Source: Micrococcales bacterium
GTDB taxonomy: Bacteria; Actinomycetota; Actinomycetes; Actinomycetales; Microbacteriaceae
DNA: 64,000 bases
Direction: 5' to 3'
NCBI GenBank assembly: GCA_947452235.1
Contig: CANGBK010000002.1
Location: 25,679-89,678 of the forward strand
Shown here: positions 30,037 to 54,728 of the stretch, piece after piece
Layout: each line of letters opens with the position of its first letter
How positions within the stretch are numbered: the first letter of the stretch is position 1
Translations under genes and position numbers: made by a program
Notes under the pieces: model-generated
Seen by the model: the letters and a program-made list of their open reading frames with translations, nothing else
Told to the model about the DNA's origin: nothing
Databases searched by the model: none

Positions 30037-31143
30037 GTGAAGAGCACAGAACAGTTCCTAAACCAAGTCCAAGCCAATCTGGTCGAGTTTTGCAGCAAGC
30101 AAAGATCAGATTTTGAAGCTATCTCTGCAGACCTCGTGCCAGTCGTTGACTTCACCCAGTCCCTTCTTGAAGGTGGCAAGCGCTTCAGAGCACTCTTTGC
30201 ATACTATTCGTGGCTGGCTAGCCTCAAGGATGAAGCCATTGTTGATGAGCAGTTTGAAGCCATTACCGGTATTGGTGCAGCACTAGAGATGTTCCATGCA
30301 GCAGCCTTGGTCCACGATGACTTGCTGGATCAATCTGACACTCGTCGCGGGGCTCCTGCCATTCACAAGAGATTTGAATCAATGCACAAAGCCAAGAACT
30401 GGGCTGGCTCACCTGAACGCTTCGGTGTTGCTGGCTCTGTTTTAGTTGGCGATTTGATGCTGGGTTGGTCAAGTGAGATTTTCGGTCACGCTCTCCTTTC
30501 TTCTAAAGATAAAGAAGTTGAGAGTTCTTGCCGAGATGAATTTAGTTTGATGCGTGTTGAAGTTATGGCAGGACAGTATCTTGATGTGCTTGAAGAAAAT
30601 GCTGCTCAAACCAGAACTATCGCGGAAGCAGTTGGCAGGGCTGAGAAAGTCATTCTCTACAAAACAGCTAAATACAGCATTGAAGCACCGCTTCGTTTAG
30701 GAGCTGCTTTCGCTGGTGCAGATCAGGCTGACTTAGGTGTTTACACACAAATCGGTATTCCTCTTGGTATTGCATTCCAATTGAGAGATGACATTCTCGG
30801 TGTTTACGGAGACCCTAGCGTTACCGGTAAACCTGCTGGTGATGATCTTCGTGAAGGTAAAAGAACTGTGCTAGTGGCTCTAACCAAAGAAGCTCTAGCC
30901 GAAAAGGCACCGTCAATGGTCGACACTTTCGAAGAACTCCTTACCAGTCGAGAGCTAGATGAAAATCAGATTGCCTTCCTGCAAAATCTAATCAAAGATT
31001 CGGGTGCTTACGATAAAACAGAGCGCATGATTGTTGAATTGGGCGACAGATCCCTTGCAGCTTTAGAAGCGGCTGATTTCAATGAGCCTGGTAAGCAGGG
31101 ACTTAAAGCCCTAGCTCTAAAGGTTATGAACCGAGACTCTTAG
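30037..31143 (+). CDS. Polyprenyl (geranylgeranyl-type) diphosphate synthase
   Basis: DDLLDQSD and LRDDILGVYGD Asp-rich motifs; GTG start. Confidence 0.92.
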   Translation: MKSTEQFLNQVQANLVEFCSKQRSDFEAISADLVPVVDFTQSLLEGGKRFRALFAYYSWLASLKDEAIVDEQFEAITGIGAALEMFHAAALVHDDLLDQSDTRRGAPAIHKRFESMHKAKNWAGSPERFGVAGSVLVGDLMLGWSSEIFGHALLSSKDKEVESSCRDEFSLMRVEVMAGQYLDVLEENAAQTRTIAEAVGRAEKVILYKTAKYSIEAPLRLGAAFAGADQADLGVYTQIGIPLGIAFQLRDDILGVYGDPSVTGKPAGDDLREGKRTVLVALTKEALAEKAPSMVDTFEELLTSRELDENQIAFLQNLIKDSGAYDKTERMIVELGDRSLAALEAADFNEPGKQGLKALALKVMNRDS

Positions 31144-31487
31144 AGAGCTAAAGACTGAGCCAGTCTTCTAACTTCTGCTTTACGGCCAGAAATCAACGCT
31201 TGAATAGGTGTCGTCTTCAAACTATCCTCAACGCTGTATAGCCAGTTGATTGCTCCATCAAGAGAGAAACCATCGTCAAGCAGAACAACGATTGTTCCGC
31301 GAAGTGATGCCAAAGGCTCACCGTCAAGAATTAGTTCAGCAGGGATTCTCTGAACACCATCTCGTTTGATAGAGATTAGGTGGTGCTCTTCAATTAGACG
31401 TCGAACTTTGCCAGGTTGAATGCCTAACAGCTCTGCAGCCTCGGTAATGGTTAGCCAGGAAGATACTTGATCTAAAGGTTCAGTCAC
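31140..31487 (-). CDS. Rv2175c-like DNA-binding protein (start re-assigned to GTG, VTEPLDQ)
   Basis: LTITEAAELLGIQPGKVRRLIEEHHLISIKRDGVQRIPAELI; neighbourhood idsA/pknL as in mycobacteria. Confidence 0.8.
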   Translation of the reverse strand: MTEPLDQVSSWLTITEAAELLGIQPGKVRRLIEEHHLISIKRDGVQRIPAELILDGEPLASLRGTIVVLLDDGFSLDGAINWLYSVEDSLKTTPIQALISGRKAEVRRLAQSLAL

Positions 31488-31537
31488 AGTGTTAACATTG
31501 CCACACCATAGCCATTCCGCATAACTATAGGCTCGAC

Positions 31538-32485
31538 GTGGCACGATATTCATGCCCAACAACTTTAGGACCAATGAACGCAGGATTTGACCCAGGCCAG
31601 AGTGCCTCGTCAGGTCAACCCTTAATCCACGTTTTTCGACCAAACGAGACTTTGGCTGAGATAGCCGCAAAATACGGTTTAGAACTCACCCAGTTGATGG
31701 AAGCAAATAACCTCAACTCATCTAGTTTTATATTTCCTGGCCAGAAGCTAGTTATCCCAGGTAAACGACTTACTCCGGTAGTTCCAGTAGTTCCTGCAGA
31801 GCATTTGGTGACTAGAGGCGAAACTCTATTGAGCATCGCGAACAAATACGGATTGAAGGTCCATCTCATTCAAGAGATCAATGACCTTCATTCAGGGTCG
31901 ATTCTATTCCCAGGAACAACCCTCCGACTTGTCTCTGATAAATCTAAAGAGCCTGAGCTGTCACAGGACTCCCGAGCACCAAAGCATTGCCTGGTTCATG
32001 GCTATCACAAGATCAAACCAGGAGATCAACTAAGTAGAATTGCTGCTTTTCATGGAGTTAGCACCCAAGCTCTTTTGATGGCCAATGATTTGAGTTGGAA
32101 CTCGGTGGTCTCCCCTGGCTCAAAGCTGATTGTTCCTATTTCACACACTCCCTATAACTGCCCAAGCCTTGTCGAATTAAGCACCAGTTCATCTGATATT
32201 GCTCAAGAACTAATTTCGGTTGGTGAAAAACTTTGGTTATCTGAATTTCAACTTGTAGTTGCACTCTGTCTTGAAATGCAACGCAGTGGTTTGCAAGCAG
32301 ATCTTGGAAGTAAACAACTTACCGAAGAACTTTTAGTAAAACTTTCAGAACTCGAAGACCATGACCTTACCTCAGTTAGAGAAACACTAAAACAAATTGG
32401 TTTTGAACAACTTGCTGAAGGCGCATCGCTTTGGGAGCCTTCAGCTTGGTATTGGCTCTATCGGCTAAAGTCGAAGAATGAGTAA
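31538..32485 (+). CDS. Triple LysM-domain protein, no recognisable signal peptide
   Basis: Three LysM repeats (HVFRPNETLAEIAAKYGL..., HLVTRGETLLSIANKYGL..., HKIKPGDQLSRIAAFHGV...); GTG 31538 or ATG 31574 start. Confidence 0.85.
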   Translation: MARYSCPTTLGPMNAGFDPGQSASSGQPLIHVFRPNETLAEIAAKYGLELTQLMEANNLNSSSFIFPGQKLVIPGKRLTPVVPVVPAEHLVTRGETLLSIANKYGLKVHLIQEINDLHSGSILFPGTTLRLVSDKSKEPELSQDSRAPKHCLVHGYHKIKPGDQLSRIAAFHGVSTQALLMANDLSWNSVVSPGSKLIVPISHTPYNCPSLVELSTSSSDIAQELISVGEKLWLSEFQLVVALCLEMQRSGLQADLGSKQLTEELLVKLSELEDHDLTSVRETLKQIGFEQLAEGASLWEPSAWYWLYRLKSKNE

Positions 32486-34283
32486 TTTAGTAGGTTCGGT
32501 GCTGGCAAACCGCTACCAGCTAACAGAACTTATTGCTCGTGGTGGTATGGCAACCGTTTATCAAGCCAAAGATCAAAAACTTGACCGCATGGTTGCTGTT
32601 AAAGTTATTCACCCCCACCTAGCCGAAGATCCTGTTTTCAGAGACAAGTTTTTCCGCGAAGCCAGAATGCTTGCCAAAGTTAATCACGCTAATCTTGTGA
32701 ACATTTATGACCAGGGCGATGACAACGGTAGAGCTTTCATAGTTTTAGAGCTGGTCAAAGGGATAACACTTAGACAAGCACTCAATGACTTTGGAAAATT
32801 ATCAACTGAACAAATAACTCAAGTTAGCAAAGCGGTTCTCTCCGCTTTAGCTCAAGCTCACGAATCCGGAATTGTTCATCGCGACCTAAAACCTGAGAAC
32901 GTGTTGTTAGCAGATGATGGTCGCATCAAAGTTACTGACTTTGGTTTGGCTAGAGAACTAACAGCGGATACCGACACTGGTTCATTAGTTGGAACTGTTG
33001 CCTACCTAGCACCTGAGGTAATTAGGCGTGGAAAAACTGAAGCGACTAGTGATATTTATAGCTTTGGCATCATGCTCTTTGAAATGCTAACCGGCAAACA
33101 GCCATACCAAGGCGAAGACGCCATGCAGATTGCTTTCAAGCACACTTCAGAGAGAGTTCCTTCTGCCCTGGTAACTAACCCCTATGTTGATGCCAATCTG
33201 AATTCACTGATGTTGGATTGCACTCAACCAAGCCCTGCTAACCGCCCGCAGAACGCTTCTGCAGTATTAGCCTTACTTCAAGGTTTGCCTAAACCACAGG
33301 TTGATCTTGCTCAAACTTTAGTGATGCCTGAAAACACAAACTTCACTGAAGTTATTGGCGATCTTGAACCTGAAGTTTCACCTTTGGGCAAACACGGCTC
33401 ACGTTATGCTGCTCTTCGCTGGCTAGTTGCAAGCGTTCTTGCTCTAAGTCTTGGTTCACTCGATGGATGGTGGTTTGGTTCAGGACCTGGAGCACTTATT
33501 GCTGTTCCAGCAACCGCAGATAAATCTCAGGTGCAGGCAACAAAGACTCTTTCAACTATTACGTCAGAGGTAATCGTAAAAAGTGTTTATAGTTCAGATT
33601 TTCCTGAAGGGACAGTTATTGGGACTCAACCAGCTGCAGGAGTTCTAGTTCCAAGGAATTCACAGATAACCATCCTGATTTCTAAAGGTAAAGAAACAGT
33701 TTCAGTTCCAGATATACAAGGTTTAGATCTGGTCACGGCCAGTGCAAAGGTGATTGCTGGAAGATTATCGGTTGGTAAAGTCACCGAATGGTTCAGCTCT
33801 GACTACCCGATTGGAACTATCTATTCATACACCGGCATGACTGGTGCTAGGTTACCTGTTTCATCACCTGTTGACCTAAAGGTCTCACTTGGATCAATAC
33901 CAGTGATTCAAGGTTTGCAACTCAACGTTGCTAAAGCAGCTCTGGAAGCTGCTGGGCTAAATGTTCGTAAGGTGAAATACAAATACTCAAACACCTTCGC
34001 TAAAGGTGAAGTCATAGCACTCTCACCTGATGAGAAAGAAGTTGGCAAAGGTTCCACGGTTGTTATTGAAGTTAGCAATGGGCCTAACACAGTAGTGATG
34101 CCAAAGGTTAAAGGCGAAACTATTTTGGCTGGTAAATCACTACTTGAATCTCTGGGTCTAAGAGTTGTGATTGACACAAAGTGGTTAACCAAGGACTACG
34201 GAATTAAGAGAATCACCGGTGCATCAGAGAACCAAGGCGTCACCTTACATGTTGGTGACACAGTGATTATTCGTTCCAGATAA
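32478..34283 (+). CDS. PASTA-domain Ser/Thr protein kinase, PknL-like by context
   Basis: HRDLKPENVLL, DFGLAREL kinase motifs; one TM; about 4 PASTA repeats. Confidence 0.93.
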   Translation: MSNLVGSVLANRYQLTELIARGGMATVYQAKDQKLDRMVAVKVIHPHLAEDPVFRDKFFREARMLAKVNHANLVNIYDQGDDNGRAFIVLELVKGITLRQALNDFGKLSTEQITQVSKAVLSALAQAHESGIVHRDLKPENVLLADDGRIKVTDFGLARELTADTDTGSLVGTVAYLAPEVIRRGKTEATSDIYSFGIMLFEMLTGKQPYQGEDAMQIAFKHTSERVPSALVTNPYVDANLNSLMLDCTQPSPANRPQNASAVLALLQGLPKPQVDLAQTLVMPENTNFTEVIGDLEPEVSPLGKHGSRYAALRWLVASVLALSLGSLDGWWFGSGPGALIAVPATADKSQVQATKTLSTITSEVIVKSVYSSDFPEGTVIGTQPAAGVLVPRNSQITILISKGKETVSVPDIQGLDLVTASAKVIAGRLSVGKVTEWFSSDYPIGTIYSYTGMTGARLPVSSPVDLKVSLGSIPVIQGLQLNVAKAALEAAGLNVRKVKYKYSNTFAKGEVIALSPDEKEVGKGSTVVIEVSNGPNTVVMPKVKGETILAGKSLLESLGLRVVIDTKWLTKDYGIKRITGASENQGVTLHVGDTVIIRSR

Positions 34284-39801: not shown

Positions 39802-40989
39802 TTACTTAGAGTTCGCTAGACCTTCAACAACCAGAGCCGCTAACTCACGAGCAGCTGCCTTGGTGTTTTTGTGTAGTTGGTCAAACTTGATAACTGATCC
39901 GGCTGCTAGAGCTGGGTCATAAGGAATCTTCACAACTGCACGAACACGAGATTTGAAGTGAGCTTCAATCTCGTCAAGCTTAACCAAGTTTGTTCCCTGA
40001 GTTGCAGTGTTTAGAGCAACGACAGAGTTACGAACAAGATCCCCATAACCGTTAGCTTCAAGCCAGGTTAGAGTCTCTGAAGCCAGCCTTGCTTCATCAA
40101 CTGAACCACCAGAAACGATAACTAGTCCGTTTGCTCTTTGCAAAGTTGGACGCATTACTGAGTGAACAATACCTGTTCCACAGTCAGTCAGGATGACGCT
40201 GTAATAACGTGCAGCCATGTCTGCAACAACGTTGTAGTCACCTTCATCGAAAGCTTCTGAAAGCATTGGGTCGCTATCTGAAGCAAGAACGTGTAAACGT
40301 GTTGCATCTCTTGAAACCATGGTTGCAAAGTCAGTGAATCCATCAATTGCAGCTGCACGGTTAACAACATCTCTAACAGTGAAACGAGTTGACTTACTCA
40401 CACGTTCAGCAAGTGTTCCACGGTCAGGGTTAGCGTCGATAGCGATAACGCGATCTTCACGCACTAGAGCCATAGCCATACCCAAAAGAGTTGAAACTGT
40501 TGTCTTACCAACACCACCCTTACGGGTTAGCACTGGCACGAACTTAGCTCCACCTTCAAGCGGTGCACCAATACGCGCATCAATTGCTTTACGCTCACGA
40601 ACCTTTAGAGAATCGCCTAGGTTCACGCTCTTGAAAGTTAAGAAGTAGAAGAAACGTCTGAAACCTGATTCAGGTGCTGGCCGGTTGCGAGGAGAGACAT
40701 CGATCAGGCGATCAGCTGTTAGCATCGCAGCTGGCTCTGGCTGTTCAAAAGCATCGCCACGAAGAGAATCTCTTCTGGTGTATCCAGCAGAAGCGTTAGC
40801 TAAAACGTCGGTTTCAGATGCACCACCTGAAGCAACGATGGATGTTGATTCGGTAACCACACGAATAGATGAAGTGGTTGGGCTTAAGTCAACTGTTCCA
40901 GCATCTAACACCACTTCGGTTAGGTCGGCTGTAACTTTAGGCTCGGCATTTCTGCGACGAGAGAGTCCTTTTTCTGGCTTATCAGACAC
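39802..40989 (-). CDS. MinD/ParA-like ATPase with long disordered N-terminus (start re-assigned to GTG, VSDKPEKG)
   Basis: LTRKGGVGKTTVSTLLGMAMALVREDRVIAIDANPDRGTLAERV; AAAAGG-type RBS before the GTG. Confidence 0.85.
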   Translation of the reverse strand: MSDKPEKGLSRRRNAEPKVTADLTEVVLDAGTVDLSPTTSSIRVVTESTSIVASGGASETDVLANASAGYTRRDSLRGDAFEQPEPAAMLTADRLIDVSPRNRPAPESGFRRFFYFLTFKSVNLGDSLKVRERKAIDARIGAPLEGGAKFVPVLTRKGGVGKTTVSTLLGMAMALVREDRVIAIDANPDRGTLAERVSKSTRFTVRDVVNRAAAIDGFTDFATMVSRDATRLHVLASDSDPMLSEAFDEGDYNVVADMAARYYSVILTDCGTGIVHSVMRPTLQRANGLVIVSGGSVDEARLASETLTWLEANGYGDLVRNSVVALNTATQGTNLVKLDEIEAHFKSRVRAVVKIPYDPALAAGSVIKFDQLHKNTKAAARELAALVVEGLANSK

Positions 40990-41022
40990 TTGAAGACCTT
41001 TTCCTAATTCCGGCAAACATTC

Positions 41023-44532: not shown

Positions 44533-45570
44533 GTGCACGTATTAAGCATTAGCGCCTTGAAGGGCGGAGTTGGTAAGACCACCATTACTTTGGGCCTTGC
44601 CTCTTCCGCCATGCAACGTGGCCTGCGAACTTTGGTGATAGACCTCGATCCGCAATGCAATACAAGCAATGGTTTAGGTGCAGTTGGGGATTTTGATGTT
44701 ACAGCGGCGGAAGTAATCAAGAAACCCCGGCACAACACTGTGTCTGAGGCAATTCTAGTCTCATCTTGGGCTAAGGGACAGACTGGCAAGTTAGATGTCA
44801 TGGTGGGTCATTCAAGACTTACCGCAGCCAATGTGACCAACCCCTCATTCAAAAAACTTTGGAACCTAGAACAGGCTTTAGCTAAGGTCGAGCCTTCGTA
44901 CGATCTTGTTTTGATAGACACACCCCCATCCATAAACGCTCTAACCCGTATGGCCTGGGTTGCTAGTGACCGCGTTTTGCTGGTTACCGAACCAACTATC
45001 AACTCGGTTCTAGCTGTTGAATCTGCCACTAAGGCTTTGACTGAATTGCGAAAGCAAGTTAATCGAAATGTCACACTGATGGGTATCGTAATCAACCGTT
45101 TAAGAACAACGGTTGCTGAGCACCAATTTAGAATCAATGAACTTGAAGAGCTTTATGGTTCTCAACTTGTTGACAGCGTCTTTGAAGAAAAATCAGTTAT
45201 TGCTCAAGCACAGGGCTCAGGCAGAGCAATCCACTCCTTCCCTGGACAAGCAGCTGCCAAAATTGCTGCTCAATTTGATTTACTTTTAGAAAAAGTTCAA
45301 CAGTCTTTTGCATACGATGACATCAGAAGAATTGAACAATCCGGAAGAAACGCTAAGAATCGCCATTCAAAGCGCAGCCACGATGCAGAACCTAAACGTT
45401 CTGGCAGAAGATCTGCTGAGCCTCGAGCAAATGCTGGTGAAAGAGTTGAACTTGTTAAGACAGCCCCTGTTGCGCCTGAATACCAGGATCAATTTAGCGA
45501 GGCTTTACGGCAAACACTGACCAGTAAGCAAATCAAAGCTATTACTGAAAGTGATTCAGAAGAGGACTAA
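44533..45570 (+). CDS. ParA-family ATPase with basic/disordered C-terminal tail; no ParB nearby
   Basis: MHVLSISALKGGVGKTTITLGLASSAMQRGLRTLVIDLDPQCNTS. Confidence 0.9.
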   Translation: MHVLSISALKGGVGKTTITLGLASSAMQRGLRTLVIDLDPQCNTSNGLGAVGDFDVTAAEVIKKPRHNTVSEAILVSSWAKGQTGKLDVMVGHSRLTAANVTNPSFKKLWNLEQALAKVEPSYDLVLIDTPPSINALTRMAWVASDRVLLVTEPTINSVLAVESATKALTELRKQVNRNVTLMGIVINRLRTTVAEHQFRINELEELYGSQLVDSVFEEKSVIAQAQGSGRAIHSFPGQAAAKIAAQFDLLLEKVQQSFAYDDIRRIEQSGRNAKNRHSKRSHDAEPKRSGRRSAEPRANAGERVELVKTAPVAPEYQDQFSEALRQTLTSKQIKAITESDSEED

Positions 45571-46145
45571 CCAGCGTTCTTTTTTAGACGACGAAGAGTT
45601 AGTTCGTCCATCTCTTCAACGTGGCTAGGGTCGATGCTGGTAAGAGTCGCTTCAACTTCACCAAATACCTTGCCAACAGAAATACCAAAAACGCCTTGAC
45701 CTTTATCCAATAGGTCAATTACTTCATCCATTGAGGTGCAAAGGAACACTTTTGCTCCGTCACAAATCAAAGTGATCTTGGCTAAGTCTTTGATACCCGC
45801 GTCGCGTAGTTCACCCATAGCAATACGAATCTGTTGAAGGGTAACTCCAGCTTCCAATAGACGCTTAACTAGCTTTAGAACCAAGATGTCTCGGAAAGAG
45901 TAAAGTCGCTGTGAACCTGAACCTGCTGCGCCTCTTACAGAAGGCTTCACCAGTGCACTGGAGTCCCAGTAATCAAGTTGACGGTAAGTAATACCTGCAG
46001 CAGTTGCAGCTGAGGTGCCTCGGTAACCAACGTTAGGGTCGTGCCAAGGTTGAGATTCTGCGAAAAGGTCGTCGGCTAGGTATGCAAATTCACTTGCTCC
46101 GCTAATGTCGATACGGCCAGTTTCAGTTGTTGGCTCTTCGTTCAT
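45567..46145 (-). CDS. MerR-family regulator (Rv1830-like)
   Basis: ATAAGITYRQLDYWDSSALVKPS..., LYSFRDILVLKLVKRLLEAGVTLQQIRIA. Confidence 0.88.
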   Translation of the reverse strand: MNEEPTTETGRIDISGASEFAYLADDLFAESQPWHDPNVGYRGTSAATAAGITYRQLDYWDSSALVKPSVRGAAGSGSQRLYSFRDILVLKLVKRLLEAGVTLQQIRIAMGELRDAGIKDLAKITLICDGAKVFLCTSMDEVIDLLDKGQGVFGISVGKVFGEVEATLTSIDPSHVEEMDELTLRRLKKNAG

Positions 46146-46167
46146 AACTCACGACCTCCTCTCAAGG

Positions 46168-46189
46168 TTCAAGTAAAGATTGAATCTTT
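46168..46189. promoter_or_regulatory. Overlapping palindromes upstream of the MerR gene (AAAGATT-G-AATCTTT and TTCAA-N7-TTGAA)
   Basis: Read directly from ggttcaagtaaagattgaatcttttc. Confidence 0.55.
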
Positions 46190-46250
46190 TCTTAATTCTT
46201 GTGCTTACTACCGACTATGTCCGGTTAATATTCTTCTTCGGCGTGTCGTA

Positions 46251-46934
46251 TTAGTCAATCTTGTCGATTACAGAGCGAATGATCTCTGCTCGAATGACTG
46301 CAAACTGGGCTTCAATTTCAGCGGCATACTGGGCTGCACGGGATTTAGCAGCTGGGTCACGCTGCTTTTTGATGGTTGTAACCACACCTTGGATTAGACC
46401 CAAATCACGATCGGCAGCAGTCTTAATGCCTCTGAGGTGCCGTGCTGAAATTCCAAAACGTTGAAGGTTGACTAGTGCTCTAGCAATCTCAATGTCTGAA
46501 TACTCAAACGGCTCCACCCCAATTAGCTTGTGTACCTGAGCCTCAGCCAGAAGTGTTTCGTTGATGCCAGATTCAGCAATAAGTTCAATTTTCTTGAAAC
46601 GACTGTTAACGCTTGGTCTTCTAGTTTCAGTTGGCAGAACCGGTTGTTTACCTGCATCTAAATCTTCTAGATACTGTCGAATGACCTTTAGCGGTAAGAA
46701 CTTATCTCTCTGGAGTTCAAGCACTAATCGAATGCGCTCAATGTGCTGGTCTGAATATTTTCTATATCCTGAAGCAGTTCTTAGCGGAGAAATCAAACCC
46801 TGCTCTTCAAGGAAACGAACCTTTGAAGGTGAAAGATCCGGATAGTCATTCTTAAGAATTTCAATAACCCGCCCAATGGTGTGTAGTTTGCCACTCGGTG
46901 CAGGATAAATCTGGCTAGCTTGATTTGATGCCAC
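46251..46934 (-). CDS. MerR-family regulator, FtsR-like (Rv1828-like)
   Basis: HTIGRVIEILKNDYPDLSPSKVRFLEEQGLISPLRTASGYRKYSDQHIERIR. Confidence 0.88.
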   Translation of the reverse strand: MASNQASQIYPAPSGKLHTIGRVIEILKNDYPDLSPSKVRFLEEQGLISPLRTASGYRKYSDQHIERIRLVLELQRDKFLPLKVIRQYLEDLDAGKQPVLPTETRRPSVNSRFKKIELIAESGINETLLAEAQVHKLIGVEPFEYSDIEIARALVNLQRFGISARHLRGIKTAADRDLGLIQGVVTTIKKQRDPAAKSRAAQYAAEIEAQFAVIRAEIIRSVIDKID

Positions 46935-47368
46935 TAGCTTGCCTTCTTAGCTGAATAAAAAGTGAAGTGATACTTCCCTACCTGTAACTCAGCAGCATTT
47001 ACTAAAACCTGTGAGTCAACTCTTGAACCCTGGTAATAGGTTCCATTTAGTGAAGCCAAATCCTTGATTGTGAACTTACCGTCAGCTCTGCTGATTTCAG
47101 CGTGACGACGAGAAACTGTTACATCATCAAGGAAGATGTCCGCGTTAGGGTGTCTACCCACTGTGACCAAATCCTGATCAAGTAAGAAACGTGAGCCTTT
47201 GTTTGGGCCTCTACGAACAATCAACAGAGCATTGCCGGCTGGCAGTGCATCAACGGCTGCCTGCTCATCGGCACTTAGCGCAAAAGGATCTTCGGCGATC
47301 AGGTCAGCCGAGAAGTTACGAGTAGCATCTAGCTCTTCACCTTGGTTCTGTTGGTTTTCGTTAGACAT
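46934..47368 (-). CDS. garA: FHA-domain protein, GarA/OdhI-like
   Basis: LLIVRRGPNKGSRFLLDQDLVTVGRHPNADIFLDDVTVSRRHAEI. Confidence 0.9.
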   Translation of the reverse strand: MSNENQQNQGEELDATRNFSADLIAEDPFALSADEQAAVDALPAGNALLIVRRGPNKGSRFLLDQDLVTVGRHPNADIFLDDVTVSRRHAEISRADGKFTIKDLASLNGTYYQGSRVDSQVLVNAAELQVGKYHFTFYSAKKAS

Positions 47369-47986
47369 CTACTTCTCCTGTTCGTTTATAAGAATAGTGG
47401 AACTGGATAGGGCTGATTTTCTTAAGTTATGAACTTGAAGTAAATAGACTGCCCCGGTCCACCAGTAGAGCCAGATTCCCCAGAAGGCAAAAGCCCAGGC
47501 TATTGGGTAGATAACCACGGCATAGCTTTCGGGCAAAACCTGAGGTAGCAACAGTAGCGGAAAGGCATATAGCAAAGCAAAGGTTCCAGCCTTACCCGTG
47601 TAGTTCACAGGAAGTGGTCCATATCCGATTTGAGCTAAGAATGGCAGGCTGAAAAAGAGCACTAGGTCTCTAGAAACAATAACTATTACTAACCACCATG
47701 GCACCTGCTGGGTGATAGCCAAACCTAAAAGCGAAGCCAATATAAACAATCGGTCAGCAGCAGGATCTAGTAATTGCCCTAAGCGAGACATCTGATTTAG
47801 TTTCCTGGCTAGATAGCCATCAAGCCAGTCGGTGAAACTAGAAAAAGCTAAAACAGCAAAGGCAATTAGATTCTGATCTATAAGAATCAACCAAAGAAAA
47901 ACTGGTACTAATAGGAGCCTGAGTGCACTTAACAGGTTCGGTAAGGTAACCACCTTTTCCGATAACTGTAAGTTCTTCTCTGCCAT
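47369..47986 (-). CDS. CDP-alcohol phosphatidyltransferase
   Basis: DWLDGYLARKLNQMSRLGQLLDPAADR matches the DX2DGX2ARX8GX3DX3D motif. Confidence 0.92.
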   Translation of the reverse strand: MAEKNLQLSEKVVTLPNLLSALRLLLVPVFLWLILIDQNLIAFAVLAFSSFTDWLDGYLARKLNQMSRLGQLLDPAADRLFILASLLGLAITQQVPWWLVIVIVSRDLVLFFSLPFLAQIGYGPLPVNYTGKAGTFALLYAFPLLLLPQVLPESYAVVIYPIAWAFAFWGIWLYWWTGAVYLLQVHNLRKSALSSSTILINEQEK

Positions 47987-53103: not shown

Positions 53104-53911
53104 AGTCGGCTCCTAACGCTGACAATAGTGATTCATCAAAACTTTCTGCACGCCAAGTGATCTGCAGTGGACCTAAGGATTCGTTCTGCTCAAAACTCAC
53201 AGCCCCTAGACGATAAAGCTCAAGAACAGAAAGGAATCTTGCGATCAGAACTCCCCTGTCTCTAACGGAGGCAATAAGTTCACTGAAGCTCAAGGTAGTT
53301 GCAGAGCGCAACATTGCAACAACTTCATAAGCCTGCTCACGGATAGAAACTCTTGGCGCGTGCAAATGAGTTAGCCCCACCATAGGTATTTCCCTAGGGG
53401 TCATCGTCTCTTGAGCAAGTCTTGCGAAATCTTCGAGAGATAAAGTCCAAACCAATTCAGGTTGCTGGGCTTTAAAACGATCTTCTAAACGAACTGAACG
53501 ATAAATACGTCTGGCTTCCAAAGCAATTGAAGTTTGGAACCAAGAAGAAATCTCCTTAAAAGCTCGGTATTGAAGTAAACGAGCGAACAAAAGATCTCTA
53601 GCTTCTAGAAGTGCAACATCCTCAGGATCAACAACTTCACCTTTAGGCAGTAGTTCGGCGATCTTAATATCCAACAGCGTTGCAGCAACCACCAAGAATT
53701 CACTGAACTCTTCCATCTGGTCTGTTTCTTCAAGAGTTCTCACATAGGTGATGAAATCGTTGGTGACCTGGCTAAGCGAAATAGAGGTGATATCTAGTTG
53801 GTGCTTAGAGATAAGTGAAAGAAGTAAATCGAAAGGACCTTCAAAGTTACCTATGTTTAGCGAGAACCCTGAACCTGAAAGATCGTCAACATCGTTATGG
53901 AGCGCAGCCAC
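53093..53911 (-). CDS. scpA: Segregation and condensation protein A (start re-assigned to GTG at 53911)
   Basis: IGNFEGPFDLLLSLISKHQLDITSISLSQVTNDFI. Confidence 0.93.
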   Translation of the reverse strand: MAALHNDVDDLSGSGFSLNIGNFEGPFDLLLSLISKHQLDITSISLSQVTNDFITYVRTLEETDQMEEFSEFLVVAATLLDIKIAELLPKGEVVDPEDVALLEARDLLFARLLQYRAFKEISSWFQTSIALEARRIYRSVRLEDRFKAQQPELVWTLSLEDFARLAQETMTPREIPMVGLTHLHAPRVSIREQAYEVVAMLRSATTLSFSELIASVRDRGVLIARFLSVLELYRLGAVSFEQNESLGPLQITWRAESFDESLLSALGADYDS

Positions 53912-54728
53912 GATCCACCATCTCTCTTGCAACTGCTCGATACAACTCAGCTGCTTCAGAGCTTGGAGCGTATTGCGTTACCGGTCTTCCCTTTTCAGAG
54001 GAGTCCTTGAACTTAACTGTCATCTTGATAACAGATCTAAAAACTGTTGCCCCATACTTTTCATTCAATTCGTTGAGCATGCTTCTGGAGTGAAGAGTTC
54101 TCGGGTCAAACATGGTGGCCAAGATTCCATCAATCTTCAAAGATTCGTTTAGGCGCTCACGAACCAGCTCAACGGTGTTGTTGATGAGAAGTTCAAGACC
54201 TTTGAGGGCAAAGTAGTCACAGGCAACTGGAATCATTACGCCATGAGCTGCTGTTAGGGCATTCACTGTTAGAAGTCCTAATGAAGGTTGGCAGTCAATC
54301 ATCACAACGTCGTAGTCGCCAAGGATTGGTCGTAATACACCAGCCAAAATCTTTTCACGGCCAGGTTCAGCAACCAACTGAATTTCTGCAGCAGAAAGCT
54401 GAATGTTTGCAGGAATAAGGTCTAGGCCTTCAACTTCGGTGTGAACAATAACTTCTGATGCGCTCATCTTGCGATTGAGCAACAGTTCGTAAACTGTTTT
54501 CCCATCTTCAGGTTCAACACCTAAGCCTCTGGTTAGAGCACCTTGAGGATCAAAATCTACGAGCAGAACCTTACGTCCATACTCAGCTAAAGCTGCAGCT
54601 GTGTTAATGGTGGTTGTTGTTTTACCAACGCCACCTTTTTGGTTACATAAAGCAATAACGCGAGCTGGTCCGTGGCTAGTTAAGCGTTTCGGGATAGGAA
54701 ACCGGTGGTCGGTGTTTCTACCTGCCAT
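53895..54728 (-). CDS. ParA/Soj-family ATPase, scpA-linked (Rv1708-like)
   Basis: ALCNQKGGVGKTTTTINTAAALAEYGRKVLLVDFDPQGALTRG. Confidence 0.93.
   Translation of the reverse strand: MAGRNTDHRFPIPKRLTSHGPARVIALCNQKGGVGKTTTTINTAAALAEYGRKVLLVDFDPQGALTRGLGVEPEDGKTVYELLLNRKMSASEVIVHTEVEGLDLIPANIQLSAAEIQLVAEPGREKILAGVLRPILGDYDVVMIDCQPSLGLLTVNALTAAHGVMIPVACDYFALKGLELLINNTVELVRERLNESLKIDGILATMFDPRTLHSRSMLNELNEKYGATVFRSVIKMTVKFKDSSEKGRPVTQYAPSSEAAELYRAVAREMVDRGCAP

Follow-up and report, generated by a model that had tools for sequence, protein, structure and literature searches.

In Mycobacterium tuberculosis and Corynebacterium glutamicum, the kinase PknG acts on the first threonine of the ETTS motif of GarA and OdhI, and PknA/B-type kinases act on the second (PMC5448819, PMC2784874). 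Published work presents ETTS as a phosphorylation motif that is conserved in GarA/OdhI (PMC8546545, PMC12321487), and the name of PDB entry 2kfu refers to GarA with a phosphorylated Thr22. The 64,000-nucleotide stretch of DNA analyzed here (the window) encodes a member of this family in which alanine stands at the position of the first threonine, which raises the question of whether the replacement marks the loss of PknG or is ordinary variation of a switch that works through the second threonine. The gene is located at 46934..47368 on the (−) strand, with AGGAG ahead of its start codon (ATG at 47368). The 144-residue product consists of a disordered tail (residues 1–45; ELDATRNFSADL, from the translation of ORF 46934-47368) and an FHA domain (residues about 53–140). 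The switch motif, D14-A15-T16-R17-N18, is encoded at 47315..47329 (−) by the codons GAT GCT ACT CGT AAC, with the ACT codon of T16, the retained second threonine, at 47321..47323 (−). In a gap-free HMMER alignment, D14-A15-T16 matches E-T-T of GarA. A15 occupies the first (PknG) threonine position, which is T21 in M. tuberculosis GarA and T14 in OdhI, T16 occupies the second (PknA/B/L) position, which is T22 in M. tuberculosis GarA and T15 in OdhI, and R17 sits where M. tuberculosis GarA has S23. The codons and the alignment thus bear out the initial annotation, which had reported the first threonine replaced by alanine, the second kept and the serine changed to arginine. The whole tail was read, and residues 1–45 contain no threonine other than T16; therefore, there is no alternative T-T motif. 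A wrong register or a second T-T motif was rejected on this basis, together with the gap-free HMMER alignment and the alignment of 41 sequences described below. T16 and F19 provide a second tail threonine with a hydrophobic residue at +3, which is a trait of GarA/OdhI proteins, and M. tuberculosis GarA (Rv1827) likewise has an acid-x-Thr-x-x-Phe tail. The first tail threonine of ETTS, replaced here by A15, is not a constant trait within the family. The FHA domain, already noted as recognizable, is complete (Pfam FHA, 6.8e-18), and its closest structures in the PDB are those of GarA (8p5r, 6e-38; 2kfu, 1e-37 by phmmer) and OdhI (1e-35).

Judged from its sequence and from the garA-ftsR-merR gene order, the product of 46934-47368 appears to be an ordinary GarA/OdhI orthologue with strong homology. 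Its top NCBIfam match is NF041660 (OdhI), at 154.4 bits, which is 84 bits over the next model and below the curated cut-off of 200 bits; given this score, the protein is assigned to the family from its synteny and its remaining traits. Directly upstream, a putative PgsA-like CDP-alcohol phosphatidyltransferase is encoded (47369..47986, (−); assigned by ORF and sequence reading), and the stop codon of this gene abuts the garA start. Downstream of garA are the genes of FtsR, a MerR-type regulator (46251..46934, (−); NF050798, 215.7 bits, cut-off 150), and of a second MerR-type regulator (45567..46145, (−); PF13411). The order of ftsR, a nuclease gene and merR beside odhI/garA is conserved in Actinobacteria, and ftsR is also next to garA in M. 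tuberculosis (PMC6683498). In the window, garA, ftsR and merR stand in the expected order, and the bifunctional-nuclease gene that usually lies between ftsR and the second merR is missing (46146-46250). The merR gene of the cluster is convergent with a ParA/MinD-like ATPase gene (44533-45570), one of three in the window (the others at 39802-41016 and 53895-54728; all named by sequence reading). The host is a small-genome freshwater Microbacteriaceae bacterium of the Rhodoluna clade, and among named relatives it is closest to Rhodoluna and further metagenome bins of freshwater Micrococcales, the best of which shows 82% identity. Its assembly is a 1.2-Mb draft in 70 contigs that is 93% complete.

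Within the Rhodoluna clade, 41 sequences were aligned, gapless through the motif. Position 16 is threonine in all 41 and position 19 is phenylalanine in 40, whereas the neighboring columns of the tail mostly have 1–3 bits of entropy. The conservation of T16 and F19 is therefore more than chance in a tail that otherwise drifts. Position 15 is serine in 28 of these sequences, alanine in 9 and threonine in 4. The twelve nearest relatives (L039–L050; 67–82% identity to the window GarA) always keep the second threonine and an aromatic residue at +3, and at the first position they have serine (4) or alanine (8), compared with alanine in the window protein. In a tree built from the FHA domain, PgsA and FtsR, alanine at position 15 occurs in three groups interleaved with serine, and its history comprises either three Ser-to-Ala changes or fewer with reversals, which differs from one clean loss. 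Serine prevails in the clade, and in most reconstructions the first threonine was gone before alanine arose. Outside the tail, the residue equivalent to R134 of OdhI is histidine in 13 of 13 members of the window's clade, lysine in some other Rhodoluna-like sequences, and arginine in 239 of the 273 sequences read.

The draft genome encodes two Hanks kinases, both with PASTA repeats, and these PASTA-type enzymes are the only kinases seen that could act on T16. One is a PknL-type PASTA Ser/Thr kinase in the window and a candidate T16 kinase (32478..34283, (+); PF00069, 4.7e-57, with PASTA repeats). It appears to be at the pknL position, as indicated by the adjoining Rv2175c homologue that marks this locus (31140..31670, (−); PF18367 and PF21531; the listed start is possibly too far upstream). 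The gene of the other kinase starts 31 bases from the beginning of contig C33, and a trpG-like gene comes next, on the opposite strand. Since complete congeners carry an adjacent pair of kinases resembling PknA-PknB and the PknL-type enzyme as a third, the PknA of the host is probably in an assembly gap beyond the end of contig C33. A PP2C phosphatase is also encoded in the genome. A genome search for pknG, which had been proposed in the initial annotation, found no PknG TPR or rubredoxin domain reaching the cut-off in the 93% complete host draft, and none in three congeneric genomes that are each a single contig and 99% complete, and the same domain searches gave clear matches in two PknG-positive Microbacteriaceae genera. 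The pknG gene required by the GlnH-GlnX-PknG-OdhI cascade is thus not found in the host genome. It is very improbable that PknG is hidden in an assembly gap or that a PknG-like input acts on a serine or threonine elsewhere in GarA: the draft is incomplete and fragmented, and PknA itself apparently lies beyond the end of a contig, but searches for the TPR and rubredoxin domains show no PknG in the complete congeners either, and the tail offers no other threonine.

The C-terminal part of OdhA is present (G000:C35), the gene being cut by a contig end, and its best profile is that of the multifunctional actinobacterial OdhA; the OdhA open frames in congeners have ∼1,250 residues. GltB is present as two contig-end pieces. 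A search of the host and nine congeners found no 180-kDa NAD-GDH, a target of M. tuberculosis GarA. In OdhI, residues R53, K132 and R134 contact OdhA (PMC10415282). The equivalents of R53 and K132 are conserved in the window GarA, whereas that of R134 is histidine throughout the clade, so OdhA binding could be altered. This substitution, together with the small genome with few kinases and the score below the NCBIfam OdhI cut-off, would fit a protein whose tail is no longer a phospho-switch, with T16 kept for another reason and GarA acting either as an inhibitor that is always on or as another kind of FHA adaptor. We consider this quite unlikely, as the conservation of T16 and F19 greatly exceeds that of the remaining tail and the kinases, the phosphatase and OdhA are all retained.

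For a wider comparison, the tail was read in 91 genomes of Microbacteriaceae and in 101 from elsewhere in the class; five loci without GarA by the pattern used were omitted, the ambiguous motif of L213 was dropped, and the motif positions were assigned by eye in L280 and L284, which both read Thr-Thr, and in a small number of further sequences. The first position in the 91 Microbacteriaceae is threonine in 70, serine in 7, glutamate in 5, alanine in 4, glutamine in 3, and asparagine and valine in 1 each. Of 200 genomes of this family, 194 have no PknG, which is also absent from most sampled families, and Thr-Thr is kept in 64 of the 85 PknG-negative Microbacteriaceae examined. Outside the family, the first position is threonine in 37 of 101 genomes, namely in 27 of 45 PknG carriers versus 10 of 56 non-carriers (Fisher p = 2e-5 by genome, 0.02 by genus). 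When each family is given one vote, the first threonine is found in 3 of 7 PknG families versus 4 of 18 and the association is no longer significant (p = 0.36); most of the difference comes from two families whose genomes all combine the first threonine with PknG. The first threonine is absent, replaced by Gln, Ser, Val, Ala or His, in 18 of the 45 PknG-carrying genomes, and some genomes with Gln, Ala or Val at this position of GarA encode a complete PknG that comprises the kinase, rubredoxin and TPR domains. A tight coupling of the first threonine to PknG was rejected as a rule on the family-level result and on these coexisting proteins. Such coexistence of complete PknG with a GarA tail without the first threonine is seen for L313, L314 and L315 (genomes G237, G244 and G236).

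These counts bear on the proposal that the alanine records a loss of PknG specific to this lineage, with a PknB/PknL-only switch and a rewired 2-oxoglutarate control as the outcome. The absence of PknG from the host genome and the complete congeners is in line with this proposal, as is the association of the first threonine with PknG by genome and by genus, but the association does not hold by family, PknG is absent family-wide though most members keep Thr-Thr, full-length PknG coexists with other residues at the first position, and in the mostly serine-bearing clade the threonine usually disappears before alanine in the reconstructions. The proposal is therefore unlikely. Because most PknG-negative family members keep Thr-Thr and two-fifths of the PknG carriers outside the family have no first threonine, alanine is not a mark of PknG loss. 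Nor is the replacement a one-off, since serine and alanine alternate among close relatives. Comparison of GarA N-termini across Microbacteriaceae, which the initial annotation had suggested, with the PknG status of the genomes showed that the absence of PknG is a family-wide feature that does not track alanine. What stands of the earlier idea of a switch driven by PknB/PknL-type kinases alone is that PknG is undetected and that only PASTA-type kinases are seen; its use of alanine as a sign of loss is not supported. Present sampling points to first-threonine replacement and PknG loss not coinciding, and a replaced first threonine is common natural variation across Actinobacteria, not a special loss.

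As the motif finder requires a threonine, the case for a conserved second threonine is made with the gapless alignment of the clade and with a shuffle test, not with the survey table. The signature [DE]-x-T-x-x-hydrophobic is found in 204 of 246 distinct tails, compared with a mean of 25.8 and a maximum of 39 after shuffling, whereas the same signature with serine for threonine is not enriched (17 versus 25.3 after shuffling). FHA domains prefer phosphothreonine, and the threonine-only enrichment fits this preference. The analysis shows that the broadly conserved core of the switch is the second threonine, usually with an acidic residue at −2 and a hydrophobic residue at +3, and not the whole ETTS. 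One Microbacteriaceae GarA (L264) reads DTSAHF, with serine replacing the second threonine and the first threonine kept.

The window GarA is thus likely an ordinary orthologue with a one-threonine switch at T16, which would be run by PASTA kinases and would release OdhA. The observed sequence and register, the conservation, and the complement of kinases, phosphatase and OdhA found or missing in the genome are consistent with the following scheme, whose phosphorylation, intramolecular binding and inhibition steps are carried over from studied homologues. Unphosphorylated GarA would bind the 2-oxoglutarate dehydrogenase OdhA through its FHA domain and inhibit it. T16 would be phosphorylated by PknB, by the PknL-type kinase of the window and probably by PknA, and pT16 would be captured intramolecularly by the protein's own FHA domain, releasing OdhA, until the PP2C phosphatase resets the switch. 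A15 would reflect relaxed constraint on a position that is mostly serine in the clade and toggles between serine and alanine in the nearest group. The histidine at the R134 position, the score under the NCBIfam OdhI cut-off and the incompleteness of the draft count against this single-site reading. In C. glutamicum grown on glutamine, OdhI-T14A causes a strong growth defect and OdhI-T15A does not (PMC2784874), and in M. smegmatis most of the phosphate on GarA is on the first threonine (PMC5448819); a switch through the second threonine only is therefore not the dominant mode in the model species.

In summary, the observation of a replaced first threonine is correct and the biology is ordinary, and its by-product is the recognition of the second threonine as the conserved core of the switch. 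A limited literature search found no paper stating that this residue, not the whole ETTS, is the conserved core. It is the ETTS threonine dominating the physiology of the model species that varies in evolution, and conclusions about GarA control from mycobacteria and corynebacteria should be checked for site and kinase before they are transferred to other Actinobacteria. We tentatively raise the possibility that the ancestral actinobacterial GarA switch worked through the second threonine alone via growth- and cell-wall-linked PASTA kinases, and that the first threonine with the amino-acid input of PknG is a lineage add-on. If so, the dominant site of mycobacteria and corynebacteria would be a derived layer, and 2-oxoglutarate flux would be coupled to cell-wall signaling in most lineages.
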